A DNA stretch of 64,000 nucleotides from Rhodocyclaceae bacterium (GTDB taxonomy: Bacteria > Pseudomonadota > Gammaproteobacteria > Burkholderiales > Rhodocyclaceae): contig JAEUNM010000104.1 of the NCBI GenBank assembly GCA_016791105.1, forward strand, positions 1 through 64,000, given 5' to 3'. Shown one piece after another: positions 13,584 to 57,704 of the stretch (position 1 is the stretch's first letter; every line of letters starts with the position of its first letter). Both the position numbers and the translations under genes were made by a program. The notes beneath the pieces are model-generated. The model was given only the letters and a program-made list of their open reading frames with translations. It ran no database searches and was not told where the DNA came from.

Positions 13584-13659
13584 GCCGGCATAGCTCAGCA
13601 GGTAGAGCAACCGCCTTGTAAGCGGTAGGTCGCGGGTTCGATTCCTGTTGCCGGCACCA
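13584..13659 (+). tRNA. tRNA-Thr (anticodon TGT)
   Basis: A 76-nt cloverleaf. The acceptor stem GCCGGCA (13584-13590) pairs with TGCCGGC (13649-13655), followed by discriminator A and an encoded CCA (13657-13659). The D-loop is TAGCTCAGCAGGTAGAGCA, the anticodon arm is CCGCCTTGTAAGCGG with TGT in the loop, and the T-arm contains GGTTCGATTCC. The sequence plan matches bacterial tRNA-Thr(TGT). It stands alone on the plus strand between two minus-strand genes and marks the start of an accessory-rich stretch. Confidence 0.97.
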
Positions 13660-53352: not shown

Positions 53353-54741
53353 TTACTTGACCTGTTCTTTGCCCTTCAGGCCGATTTTCAGGCTGTCTAT
53401 GTAGGCATTGGGTTTGGAGCCGTCATAGCTCACGCCGTCCAGAAAGTCCTTGGTGGCGGGCTTGAAGCCGGTTTCTTTGGCGAAATCGGGGAAATCCGCG
53501 GCTTTCATTTTGCCCTCGGCGATCAGTTCTTTCGCGGCGGCTGCGTAAATGTCCGGGCGATAGACTTTTTTCGCGGTGTCCATGTACCAGGAATCCGGCT
53601 TGAATTCGGCAATCTGGCCCCAGCGGCGCATTTGCGTCAGATACCAGATGGCGTCCGAATAGTAGGGGTAGGTCGCGTTGTAACGGAAGAACACGTTGAA
53701 ATCGGGCACCTTGCGCACGTCGCCCTTTTCGTATTCGAAGGTGCCGGTCATGCTGTTGGCGATCACCTTGTAGTCGGCGCCGACGTAGTTTGAAGCCGAG
53801 ATCATTTTTGCGGCTTCCTGGCGGTTCTTGTCGTTTTCCGCATCCAGCCAGTAGGCGGCGCGAATGAGCGCCTTCACCACCGCCTTGTGGGTTTTCGGAT
53901 TTTTGTCGTTCCACTCCTTGGTGACGCCAAACACCTTTTCCGGGTTGTTCTTTTCGATTTCAAAGTCGGTGATGACCGGCGCACCTATGCCCTTGAACAC
54001 CGCCTGCTGGTTCCACGGTTCGCCCACGCAATAGCCGTCTATGGTGCCGGCTTCCATGGTGGCAGGCATTTGCGGCGGCGGGGTGACGGACAGCAGCACG
54101 TCGGCATTGATGTTGCCGGCCGTGTCGCCCTTTAGTGGTGCGTACAGGCCGGGGTGCAGTCCGCCCGAAGCGAGCCAGTAGCGCAGTTCATAGTTGTGCG
54201 TGGAAACCGGGAACACCATGCCCATCTTGAAGGCCTTGCCTTCTTTCTTGTAGTCATCCACGACTGCCTTGAGGTAGTCCGCCTTGATCGGATGCACCGG
54301 CTTGCCGTCCGGACCTTTGGGCAATTTGGCCTTGAGCTTTTCCATGACGGCGTTGGAAACCGTGATGGCATTGCCATTCAGGTCCATCGAAAAAGCCGTG
54401 ATCACTTCCGCCTTGGTGCCGTAGCCTATGGTGGCGCCCAGGGGCTGGCCGGCCAGCATGTGTGCGCCATCCAGTTCGCCGGAAATGACGCGGTCCAGCA
54501 GCACCTTCCAGTTGGCCTGCGCTTCCAGCGTGACGTACAGGCCTTCGTCCTCGAAATAATGCTTTTCGTAAGCCACTGCCAGGGGCGCCATGTCGGTCAG
54601 TTTGATGAAGCCGAATTTGAGGTCCGGCTTTTCGACTTTATCCTTGGCCTGGGCGGCGCCGGCAAACGCGGCGAGGGCCACGGCGGCGGCCAGGGTGCAG
54701 CGGGCGAATCGGCTGTGGGAGCGGGATTGCGTGATCGGCAT
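53353..54741 (-). CDS. nrtA: Nitrate-binding protein NrtA
   Basis: 462 aa. A periplasmic solute-binding protein for nitrate (or nitrite). It has a Sec signal peptide cut after AGAAQA (about residue 32). The CmpA/NrtA fold is indicated by [55 protein letters not shown] and [20 protein letters not shown]. No lipobox is seen, so it is free in the periplasm. GAGGAG lies 9 nt before the start. It is the first gene after the regulated leader. It is a paralogue of NasS at 55115-56425, which lacks a signal peptide. Confidence 0.95.
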
Positions 54742-54785
54742 TTGGAAATCTCCTCGTAAATTTAAAAAGCGGCTGGCTCGCGGCG

Positions 54786-54835
54786 AAAAAAAGCGCCCAC
54801 GCAGCCGGTTCGATTAAACCGACTAACGTGGACGC
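54786..54835 (-). terminator. Leader terminator (attenuator) of nrtA
   Basis: On the minus strand GCGTCCACG (54835-54827) pairs with CGTGGGCGC, continued inward by AGTCGGTT/AACCGGCT around a TAATCG loop, then seven Ts (54792-54786). The hairpin is 17-18 bp with two or three G-T pairs and one bulge. It lies 44 bp before the nrtA start, so transcription would stop before the operon unless antiterminated. Confidence 0.85.
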
Positions 54836-54846
54836 CTTTGTCCGTC

Positions 54847-54904
54847 GTGACCCAACCGCGGGTCACAGTGCGAAATATTTACCTGGGGCTTCTGAACGAA
54901 GCCC
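54847..54904 (-). promoter_or_regulatory. Paired leader hairpins, probable NasT (ANTAR) target
   Basis: Minus strand: hairpin 1 GGGCTTC-GTTCA-GAAGCCC (54904-54886) and hairpin 2 GTGACCC-GCGGTT-GGGTCAC (54866-54847), both perfect 7-bp stems, 19 nt apart, just before the terminator. ANTAR proteins bind two neighbouring hairpins with hexaloops carrying A1 and G4. Hairpin 2 has a hexaloop with G4 but not A1, and hairpin 1 has a 5-nt loop, so the match is by architecture more than by sequence. Confidence 0.6.
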
Positions 54905-54957
54905 TATGCGCCGGCACCCGCCATTGAATGTCTGCGCGCTTGGTTCATTGCTTATTA

Positions 54958-54973
54958 AGCAATCGCCATGCCA
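54958..54973 (-). promoter_or_regulatory. Sigma-54 promoter of the nrt leader
   Basis: TGGCATG-GCGA-TTGCT on the minus strand fits the -24/-12 consensus TGGCACG-N4-TTGCW with the invariant GG-N10-GC. Transcription would start near 54947, giving a leader of about 205 nt. The 17-bp palindrome ATTGCTTA-A-TAAGCAAT (54963-54947) overlaps the -12 box and start. Confidence 0.75.
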
Positions 54974-55066
54974 GGGTCGGTGCAGTCGCAATTCTTGCGG
55001 ATTACTGGCACATGAGGGGCGGCGCGCACAAGTGCGGCGCATGCTTCGGCAGCCGCCGGCGCGCTC

Positions 55067-55083
55067 TGCACCGTGGCAGTGCG
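55067..55083 (-). promoter_or_regulatory. NtrC-like enhancer site
   Basis: CGCACT-GCCAC-GGTGCA on the minus strand; the NtrC consensus is TGCACC-N5-GGTGCA, so one half is perfect and the other matches 4 of 6. It lies about 125 bp upstream of the predicted start, a usual enhancer distance. A lone GGTGCA half-site is at 54979-54984. Confidence 0.5.
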
Positions 55084-55114
55084 CAGGCGGCTGGTCGGTA
55101 AGAAGAAGCGAGGC

Positions 55115-56425
55115 TCAGATTTTTTCGTGTAGCGCAGCCATGTGCATGGCATGCACCGGAATGTTGCGCGACAGATCGCCGGGATGGTCGGGATCGAAAT
55201 TTGCGCCGTCGAAAAAGCGGTCCGCACCCATTTCGAGCTGTCTGCCGCCGCCCGCGATGGACCAGGCGCCGGCGTGCAGTCCTTCGGATTTGTAATCCAC
55301 ATCCGGCACCGGCAGGCCCAGGTCGGCCGCGGCGGCGCGGTAAATGTCGGTGCGATAGACGCTTTCGGCGATTTGCCGCAAGTCCTGCTGCGCGTCGATT
55401 TGTCCCCAGCGTACCATTTGTGCGAGCAGCCACAGGGCGTGCGAACGCCAGGGAAAATTCGCGCAGTAACGGTGGAATACGTTGAAATCGGTCATTTTTA
55501 CCGGCGCTTCGTCGTGCGCGTAGCGCCAGGTGCCGGTCATCGAGTGCGCCACTACCTCTGCCGGGGCATGCACGTATTCGCGCCGCGCAATCAGATGCAC
55601 GACTTCGGCGCGATTTTCCGCGGCATCCATCCAGCGCGCCGCCTGCAGCAGGGCGCGCAACAGGGCGCGGTGGGTATTGGGATGCGCCTCGGCCCAGGCG
55701 CGGGTTACGCCGAATACCTTTTCCGGGGCGTTGTTCCACAATTCGTAGCCGGTGACCACCACGTGGCCTATGCCCAGTTCCACCGCCTGCTGGTTCCACG
55801 GCTCGCCCACGCAATAGCCGACGATGGCGCGCGAAGCCAGGTTATCCACCATTTGCGGCGGCGGCAGCACAACCAGGCGTAGATCGCGGTCCGGATCTAT
55901 GCCGGCCGATGCCATCCAGTAGCGCAGCTGGTAGTTGTGCATCGATACCGGGAACACCATCGCGAAGGTCATGGGCGGGCGCCCGGCGGCGCGGTCCTCG
56001 TCTATCACCTTGCGCAGCGCGGTGGCCGCAATGGGCCGTTGTTGCATGGCCTGCGGGTCGGCTTTCTGCATGCGCGCGTACAACTCGTTGGAAACGGTGA
56101 TGGCGTTGCCATTCAGGTCCATGGAAAACGCCGTCACCATGGCTTTTTGCGCGCCGGCCAGGCCCAGCGTGGCGGCGATGGGCATGCCCGCCAGCATGTG
56201 TGCGCCATCCAGCTCGCCGAGCACCACCTTGTCGCGGATATTGGCCCAGGACGGCTCGCGGGACAGCGATACGTCCAGGCCCTGCTGCGCGAAATAGCCC
56301 ATTTCTTTGGCCACTACCAGCGGTGCGCAATCGGTGAGTGGAATGATGCCCAGGCGCAGCCGGGTTTTTTCCAGGCCGCTGCCGCCGGTGGGCTGTGGCT
56401 CGTCCGCGTATTCAAATTGGGTCAT
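55115..56425 (-). CDS. nasS: NasS-type nitrate sensor (NrtA-like, cytoplasmic)
   Basis: 436 aa from ATG 56425 (MTQFEYADEPQPTGGSGLEK). It resembles NrtA along its length ([60 protein letters not shown]) but has no signal peptide, as in NasS proteins. In NasS-NasT systems NasS holds the antiterminator NasT and releases it when nitrate or nitrite binds. The neighbouring ANTAR gene and the leader with a terminator make this role very likely. It lies 142 bp after nasT. Confidence 0.88.
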   Translation of the reverse strand: MTQFEYADEPQPTGGSGLEKTRLRLGIIPLTDCAPLVVAKEMGYFAQQGLDVSLSREPSWANIRDKVVLGELDGAHMLAGMPIAATLGLAGAQKAMVTAFSMDLNGNAITVSNELYARMQKADPQAMQQRPIAATALRKVIDEDRAAGRPPMTFAMVFPVSMHNYQLRYWMASAGIDPDRDLRLVVLPPPQMVDNLASRAIVGYCVGEPWNQQAVELGIGHVVVTGYELWNNAPEKVFGVTRAWAEAHPNTHRALLRALLQAARWMDAAENRAEVVHLIARREYVHAPAEVVAHSMTGTWRYAHDEAPVKMTDFNVFHRYCANFPWRSHALWLLAQMVRWGQIDAQQDLRQIAESVYRTDIYRAAAADLGLPVPDVDYKSEGLHAGAWSIAGGGRQLEMGADRFFDGANFDPDHPGDLSRNIPVHAMHMAALHEKI

Positions 56426-56567
56426 GTCGATGTTCCTGATTGCGCGCGGCCTGCCGGCGTGCCCGGCGAGGGGCCGAGGGGTGCGCGCGCGTGCAACAAA
56501 AAGCCAAGCCAGAAGCGTGCCAAACACGCTATCGGTGCAGCCTTGCCGCACGCGGCGGACCTGGCCT

Positions 56568-57143
56568 TCATAACAGCAGGGCGGCGCTATCCAGCACGCC
56601 CTGGGCAATATCGACGATGCGCTTGCCGCGTTCCATGGCGAGCTTGCGCAAGGCGTGGTAGGCGGCGTCCTCTTCCATGCCCTTGGTTTTCATCAGCACG
56701 CCTTTGGCGCGTTCGATGACCACCCGCTCGGCCAGCTTGCGCGATGCTTCGTCGCGCTCCTGGCGGAGCTTCTGGAATTGCTCGAACTGCACCAGCGCCA
56801 CTTCGACGATGGACGCCAGCTTTTCCGGCGCCACCGTTTCGGCGACGTAGGCGGCGACCCCGGCGCGCAGCGCGCTGCGTATCACGGCCGCGTCGCGCTC
56901 GCGCGAAAACAGCAGCACGGGGCGCGGGTTGGCGCGATTGAGCGTGGCCAAATGTTCGAGGGTGTCGCGGCTGGGCGATTCGGTGTCGATCAGAATGACA
57001 TCCGGCGCCACGGTTTCGACCTGCTGGGCAAGATCGATCGCGCTGGGAAGTACGGCCGCGACCTGGTAGCCCGCGCGTATCAGTCCTACCCCTATTTCGC
57101 TGGCACGCTCGCGCGATTCATCGACAACGAGAATTTTCAGCAT
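56568..57143 (-). CDS. nasT: NasT-type ANTAR antiterminator
   Basis: 191 aa from ATG 57143 (MLKILVVDESRERASEIGVG). Receiver-like domain (1-120) with Asp in DVILIDTESPSRD. A coiled linker follows, then the ANTAR RNA-binding domain (about 135-188): AERVVIERAKGVLMKTKGME, AYHALRKLAMERGKRIVDIA, a strong match. ANTAR proteins bind paired hairpins in nascent RNA and prevent terminator formation. The likely target is the nrtA leader (54786-54904). Gene order here is nasT then nasS, the reverse of the common order. Confidence 0.9.
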   Translation of the reverse strand: MLKILVVDESRERASEIGVGLIRAGYQVAAVLPSAIDLAQQVETVAPDVILIDTESPSRDTLEHLATLNRANPRPVLLFSRERDAAVIRSALRAGVAAYVAETVAPEKLASIVEVALVQFEQFQKLRQERDEASRKLAERVVIERAKGVLMKTKGMEEDAAYHALRKLAMERGKRIVDIAQGVLDSAALLL

Positions 57144-57704
57144 GTTCGGGCTGTGATTGCATTTCCTGGATGCAAGCAGAAAGCGTGCCAACAATTCGAG
57201 GCCTTCCTTTGAGCGCACGGGCATGCAGTTGCCCATGACCAGAAGGGCGCGTGCTATGGCGCGTGAGAACTCGGGTAAACGAGCGTGGCCGTGGTGCCAT
57301 CGTCGGCGCCGACGCCGACGCTACATGGATCAATGAAGAAATCGATACCGAGTCCCAGGAGAAATTCGAGGAAGGAATCGGCAAAACACTGTATTGGGGC
57401 GTAGTCTGCACACCCCGCAGGGGCTAAACCGAGTTGGCCCGGCGTCACCTCGTGCGACGTCTAAAGTCGTTCGGCGCAGCCCTGTACATCCTCTGTTCTG
57501 GTTCGATTTGAGGGGTGCCCAGTTCAAAACATGTGCTTGCGCGCAGCGTGCGCATGCGGGTCACAGGCTGATTCAGCCTCGCCGTAACATTGAATTGTGT
57601 GAATCATTAACCGAATAATTGCTATCTAACGCGAACATGGTTGTTGTCGTCTACCACGAAGTGCAGGCAAAGACGGGTGCAGGTGATAGGGGGCGTAAAT
57701 CGGA
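57144..57704. other. 561-bp stretch upstream of nasT
   Basis: No gene is supported; small frames of 60-97 codons on the minus strand have no domain. It must carry the nasT promoter, which I could not define. A lower-GC zone lies at 57590-57700. Confidence 0.45.

Follow-up and report, generated by a model that had tools for sequence, protein, structure and literature searches.

Locus and gene content

The window analysed here is a stretch of 64,000 nucleotides (64 kb) from the forward strand of contig JAEUNM010000104.1 (assembly GCA_016791105.1) of a Rhodocyclaceae bacterium. Its minus strand carries, in this order, nasT, nasS, a gap of 373 nt, nrtA, nrtB and nrtCD. The gap holds the elements of a promoter and of an RNA leader, which are listed below together with the genes.

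57143-56568, minus strand: nasT, response-regulator-like receiver plus ANTAR RNA-binding domain (Pfam Response_reg and ANTAR above cut-off)
56425-55115, minus strand: nasS, nitrate/nitrite-sensor-like protein of the NMT1_2 (NrtA-like) family (Pfam NMT1_2, 317 bits)
55082-55068: NtrC-like dyad GCACTGCCACGGTGC (GCAC-N7-GTGC), perfect match
54973-54959, minus strand: sigma-54 type -24/-12 promoter TGGCATGGCGATTGC, consensus match, predicted start at about 54947
54930-54915, minus strand: P1, ANTAR-type hairpin CAUUC[AAUGGC]GGGUG, with A1/G4 hexaloop and C-G closing pair, present in the predicted minimum free energy fold
54904-54886, minus strand: insert hairpin 1, GGGCUUC(GUUCA)GAAGCCC, 5-nt loop, in the P1-P2 linker, present in the predicted fold
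54866-54847, minus strand: middle hairpin, GUGACCC[GCGGUU]GGGUCAC
54843-54830, minus strand: P2, ANTAR-type hairpin GGAC[AAAGGC]GUCC, with A1/G4 hexaloop and C-G closing pair, matched by sequence and by covariance model
about 54836-54786, minus strand: intrinsic terminator (attenuator), a long stem ending in GGGCGC and followed by UUUUUUU, predicted at -32.1 kcal/mol
54741-53353, minus strand: nrtA, nitrate-binding protein of an ABC transporter (Pfam NMT1_2), predicted first controlled gene
53279-52272, minus strand: nrtB, ABC transporter permease (Pfam BPD_transp_1)
52246-50486, minus strand: nrtCD, two ATP-binding domains in a single protein (TIGR01184 ntrCD, 618 bits, above cut-off)

NasT, a receiver-ANTAR protein, is encoded next to the NrtA-like NasS, which is the arrangement of a NasS-NasT system. 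The ANTAR domain of NasT scores 66.8 bits (Pfam), and the nearest relatives of the protein are NasT-like proteins encoded beside nasS-like genes. NasS homologues are 60-90% identical, with nasT adjoining in many cases; no N-terminal signal was seen in NasS of the window. Homologues of nrtA at 84-89% identity occur in several genera. The top NCBIfam match of nrtB is TIGR01183 (ntrB) with 157 bits, which is under the cut-off, and nrtCD contains two ABC_tran stretches (Pfam).

The only other ANTAR protein found in the genome of the window is a receiver-ANTAR protein of 194 aa (L002 1108-1692, G000:C9). Its gene adjoins a frame that would encode a PAS-type sensor-kinase-like protein, and shows no apparent connection with nitrate genes. 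Besides NrtA and NasS, a third binding protein of this NrtA/NasS-like type, at about 39% to nrtA and 49% to nasS, is encoded in the genome of the window (L197, G000:C126:136897) and in G024 of the same genus (L196), in both genomes after an ABC ATPase-like frame.

Promoter region

The promoter has the form GG-N10-GC, with GG at 54972-54971 and GC at 54960-54959, both in consensus flanks. The centre of the NtrC-like dyad lies about 128 bp upstream of the predicted start and 103 bp from the -24 element, within the range of about 80-150 bp set for such a site. By frequency alone neither pattern is significant: the sigma-54 pattern occurs once in 64 kb, against 0.66 expected copies, and the NtrC pattern once in the window, against 3.4 expected. 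Support for an NtrC layer is therefore drawn from the conservation of the dyad in relatives and not from these single-copy counts. A perfect GCAC-N7-GTGC within 220 bp upstream of the promoter was found in 56 of 84 related leaders, the window leader included, compared with 0.8 expected from dinucleotide shuffles, and P1 begins 21-26 nt past the -12 GC in 72 of 86 related leaders, 30 positions having been allowed; as these leaders share ancestry, neither 56/84 nor 72/86 is a count of independent events. The genome encodes both rpoN (PF04552, 221 bits) and ntrC (TIGR01818, 697 bits, above cut-off).

A second sigma-54-like site, TTGGCACGCTTCTGGC, is located in the gap between nasT and nasS (56508-56523, minus strand) and is identical in a contig from the same genus (L135 3371). 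The corresponding gap of L034, L036 and L044 carries a full ANTAR leader, of which the window seems to retain the promoter-like site only.

Structure of the leader

The leader is predicted to fold far more stably than its shuffles (z -6.2). P1 is located about 17 nt past the predicted start; its stem consists of 5 bp with two G-U pairs and is enclosed by outer GCGC/GCGC arms, which extend the structure to 54937-54908. Alone, P1 scores 4.9 bits in the covariance model described below. P2 is located in the 5' arm of the terminator, and because positions 54836-54830 are common to P2 and the terminator stem, the two structures are mutually exclusive. A transcript that stops at 54829 is predicted to carry all four hairpins at once (P1, insert hairpin 1, middle hairpin, P2); when its end lies at 54795-54788, the terminator has taken the place of P2 in the predicted fold.

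In ANTAR leaders already known, the 5' arm of the terminator conceals the second recognition hairpin (Ramesh 2012, PMC3369931), a requirement of the model that P2 fits by its place at the terminator's 5' base. The closing pairs of the two hexaloops (C54926-G54919 in P1, C54840-G54833 in P2) do not vary in set A2 or among the nrtA group of leaders defined below. A C-G closing pair together with an A1/G4 loop was also selected by NasR in SELEX (PMC7496416), and both P1 and P2 carry this combination. The leader thus has the two A1/G4 hexaloops, the C-G closing pairs and the terminator-overlapping second hairpin of dual-hexaloop ANTAR leaders, but its P1-P2 linker measures 71 nt (loop distance 86 nt), whereas a short linker (5-12 nt in eut, though the general definition calls it "variable") forms part of the description of such leaders.

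Related leaders

Relatives were gathered by homology to NasT within the family, to NasS across a wider set of genomes and to nrtA within the family and order. Scanning these for promoter, P1, P2 and terminator yielded 86 distinct leaders; as the leaders were picked for P1-like and P2-like loops, loop presence in this set is partly by construction. In G024, the contig of which ends inside nasS, a DNA search with the leader gave no match. The P2-terminator pattern was found in 10 of 399 genomes, from six genera, compared with one match for the reversed control pattern.

The leaders that precede nrtA form a group of ten from six genera (window, L198, L199, L203, L205, L209, L133 (L133/L208), L218, L224 and L226). 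Common to all are the promoter, a P1 at 33-38 nt after the promoter, a hairpin loop about 20 nt ahead of the P2 loop, and a P2 within the terminator. The P1 loop reads AANGNN in ten of ten, with A1, A2 and G4 kept and a covarying stem, and A1 and G4 are kept in every P2 loop of the group. A positional homologue of the middle hairpin is likewise present in 10/10, with a loop that is A1/G4 in four (L203, L209, L133, L218), retains G4 only in three (GCGGUU in the window, with G in place of A1; UGGGCA in L198 and L199) and has 5 nt in three (L205, L224, L226). Loop constraint thus appears to fall on P1 and P2, while the middle hairpin keeps its helix and its loop drifts. The window, L198, L199 and L205 have their P1 and P2 loops 86 nt apart, the remainder of the group 59-91 nt. 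At the position of insert hairpin 1 relatives also have a hairpin, the loops of which differ, none being held in common.

In two g60 genomes nrtA has a sigma-54 promoter without a clear P2-terminator (L202 and L207). L207 has a hexaloop-like hairpin, CCTCT-AACGAT-GGGGG, with no U run behind it, perhaps another mode of control.

Linker length and third hexaloops

The linkers of the 86 related leaders range from 2 to 76 nt; 28 leaders have at most 12 nt and 42 have at least 25 nt. Since 58 of 86 exceed 12 nt, a short linker appears to be a property of eut and not of NasT leaders in general, and the leader in the window appears to be an expanded variant. Many of the long linkers fold into a hairpin, but in the Thiobacillus-like group most do not form one.

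A third A1/G4 hexaloop (stem of at least 4 bp) was found in 16 of the 42 long linkers compared with 1.3 in shuffles, although a few of these leaders may have a chance P1 instead. Counted by lineage the figures are 9 of 18 compared with 0.7; raising the minimum stem to 7 bp leaves 8 compared with 0.1. The firmer triple arrays are those of L042/L045/L047, L092/L094/L100, L090, L133, L203, L209 and L218. Doubtful are the Competibacter arrays L129, L131 and L174, and L145, in which the first hexaloop has a stem of just 4 bp and is maybe due to chance. Two genomes (G030 and G088) combine a leader with a 13-nt linker before nasS with one of 72 nt before nrtA, so that in each of them one NasT probably reads both.

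In the eut leaders, with linkers of 5-12 nt, lengthening is not tolerated; setting the eutP linker to 3 or 14 nt, or adding 20 nt, abolished antitermination by EutV (PMC3369931, PMC8934654). Paracoccus denitrificans, whose two functional leader hairpins stand 46 nt from each other (PMC5424462), sets a partial precedent for NasT leaders with wider spacing.

Covariance model and choice of the recognition pair

The covariance-model scan for ANTAR elements that had been suggested along with the original prediction was performed with a model (R1) built from 24 short-linker leaders of relatives, the window excluded. Its alignment has 39 cells with changes on both sides, a number reached by none of 500 shuffles. 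The best match in the 64-kb window, and the sole clear site, is 54864-54830 (20.3 bits, E 4.7e-4). No site in the 5.1-Mb genome ranks above it (E 0.038 there). Lower-scoring matches elsewhere in the genome were rejected as targets after inspection, as they had no P2 followed by a terminator. R1 aligns the middle hairpin to its P1 half and so pairs it with P2, because the model has a short linker; the true P1 is recovered only as the 4.9-bit fragment. The match confirms an ANTAR element at the level of sequence and is compatible with either P1 or the middle hairpin as the partner of P2.

Rfam 15, applied to the whole window with gathering and relaxed thresholds, gave no ANTAR leader or other relevant family. 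This type of leader is widespread in Rhodocyclaceae, yet the Rfam scan of the window found only a tRNA at 13584-13656.

In the interpretation that we prefer, with a probability of about 0.7, the region combines a sigma-54/NtrC promoter with, behind it, an ANTAR antitermination leader of the NasT type, which would control nrtABCD and have P1 and P2 as its main recognition hairpins. Three observations count against it: the weak score of P1, with two G-U pairs in its stem, the 71-nt linker in view of the limits seen with EutV, and the pairing of the middle hairpin with P2 by R1. The last would be expected if the middle hairpin (with GCGGUU as a tolerated G1/G4 loop) and P2 were the working pair at the classical short spacing, P1 being an auxiliary recruitment site or dispensable. 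The two hairpins are separated by a 3-nt linker, with loops 20 nt apart, and loop-to-loop spacings of 19-28 nt are common among related leaders. Furthermore, the EutV-RNA crystal shows base-specific contact at G4 alone (PMC8934654), and in the relative L083 a GACGAC hairpin is the only one 20 nt before P2. Against this stand the drift of the middle loop beside a P1 that is constant in all ten leaders of the nrtA group, the lowered induction on mutation of A1 in EutV targets (PMC3369931) and the failure of a 3-nt linker in eutP (PMC3369931), although linkers of 2-4 nt are common in Rhodocyclaceae leaders. On balance we regard a middle hairpin-P2 pair as improbable, albeit worth keeping in view. 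As to G1/G4 hexaloops in general, natural examples occur elsewhere, namely GACGAC in L083 and GACGAU in L212, each 20 nt before P2.

All the elements that the original prediction had placed at this locus (sigma-54 promoter, NtrC-like dyad, two perfect hairpins and terminator, with nasT and nasS upstream) are present at the positions given for them. Its choice of recognition pair fared less well. Hairpin 1 (here insert hairpin 1) and hairpin 2 (here the middle hairpin) had been taken as a pair that NasT might recognize through a variant loop code, and the A1/G4 hexaloops of P1 (54930-54915) and P2 (54843-54830), which flank both, had been missed. The stems are indeed perfect, both hairpins are in the predicted fold and the position of hairpin 2 is conserved. 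Such a pair is nevertheless very unlikely, given that canonical hexaloops lie on either side, one of them built into the terminator, that the loop of hairpin 1 is not conserved, and that neither hairpin overlaps the terminator, so that binding them would not alone prevent termination. Of the suggested variant element, a role thus stays conceivable for hairpin 2, whose counterpart in some relatives has an A1/G4 loop, and is dropped for hairpin 1, a linker insert with a variable loop.

That the terminator merely insulates nrtA from nasTS, with nrtA expressed from the sigma-54 promoter alone or from a promoter behind the terminator and with no antitermination, is scarcely credible: the terminator would also stop read-through from nasTS, but the sigma-54 promoter sits upstream of it, the gene for NasT is adjacent, all homologous leaders have P2 built into the terminator, and no sigma-70-like promoter was found within 54000-57400.

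Proposed mechanism

The originally proposed control in two layers, a sigma-54/NtrC promoter followed by NasT antitermination before nrtA, is well supported, as far as sequence can tell, by the anatomy of the region, by its conservation and by the presence of rpoN and ntrC. With P1 and P2 as the recognition hairpins, and by comparison with characterised systems, nitrogen limitation would activate NtrC and lead to sigma-54 transcription from about 54947. According to the predicted folding, the nascent RNA would form its four hairpins one after another, from P1 to P2, until the emerging 3' arm allows the terminator to displace P2 and transcription stops. If the system behaves like the characterised NasT, NasR and EutV systems, nitrate would cause NasS to release NasT, which would bind the A1/G4 hexaloops of P1 and P2, hold P2 and thereby block the terminator.

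A linker of 71 nt is unexpected unless the inserts compact it, because EutV fails at 14 nt or with 20 nt added. The inserted helices may shorten the path from P1 to P2 in this way, and the middle hairpin with its GCGGUU loop, possibly a diverged third hexaloop, may help to hand NasT from P1 to P2. More tentatively, and as a possibility that we consider somewhat less probable than its opposite, three-hexaloop arrays or helix-bridged pairs over up to 76 nt could be functional in the nitrate leaders of beta-proteobacteria, in which the promoter-proximal loop would recruit, the middle loop relay and the last loop antiterminate, and a single NasT would serve leaders with short and with long linkers within one cell.

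Comparison with known systems

Control of nitrate assimilation in two layers, Ntr and ANTAR, is already known from Klebsiella nasF and from P. denitrificans. The window resembles the nasTS-nasABGHC region of P. denitrificans in the order nasT, nasS, noncoding leader and structural genes (PMC5424462, PMC3795266). There, NasT binding and mutations of the leader hairpins were tested (PMC5424462, PMC3795266), and nitrate-dependent dissociation of NasS and NasT is known (PMC3795266). The P. denitrificans leader has the hairpins HI and HII, NasT-dependent antitermination and Ntr as a further layer (PMC5424462, PMC3795266), and the window appears similar by sequence. The tested NtrC site of P. denitrificans lies before nasT, whereas the sigma-54/NtrC elements of the window are located directly before the leader. 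HI and HII are placed 137 and 91 bp before nasA, with a distance of 46 nt, in contrast to loops 86 nt apart and extra hairpins in the window, where the controlled genes encode an ABC nitrate transporter, unlike nasABGHC.

Klebsiella oxytoca nasF shares with the predicted system of the window activation by Ntr (NtrA/NtrB/NtrC), nitrate-responsive ANTAR antitermination, C-G closed A1/G4 hexaloops and a P2 overlapping the terminator. Its regulator NasR is a one-component NIT-ANTAR protein, where the window has NasS and NasT, and its leader is a two-hairpin P1P2, where that of the window contains inserted hairpins and a hexaloop-like middle hairpin. The eut leaders of Enterococcus faecalis (EutV) also have two A1/G4 hexaloops with the second mutually exclusive with the terminator; they differ in their linkers of 5-12 nt (PMC3369931, PMC8934654), compared with a structured linker of 71 nt in the window, as well as in signal and sensor.

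Regulator and leader in the window thus appear to be of a known kind, the leader being a NasT leader expanded beyond the rule of two hairpins and a short linker. A long, helix-bearing linker and a recurrent third hexaloop are not described in the papers searched, and triple hexaloop arrays were not found in this literature, in which coverage of subscription papers was thin. ANTAR leaders are searched and modelled as two short-linked hexaloops, and part of the basis of the successive-binding model for EutV is the loss of function upon linker lengthening. The natural series of linkers from 2 to 76 nt offers material for testing loop-to-loop handover against a need for spatial closeness. A search that fixes the linker at a short length will overlook members or mis-pair them, as with the GCGGUU hairpin of the window.
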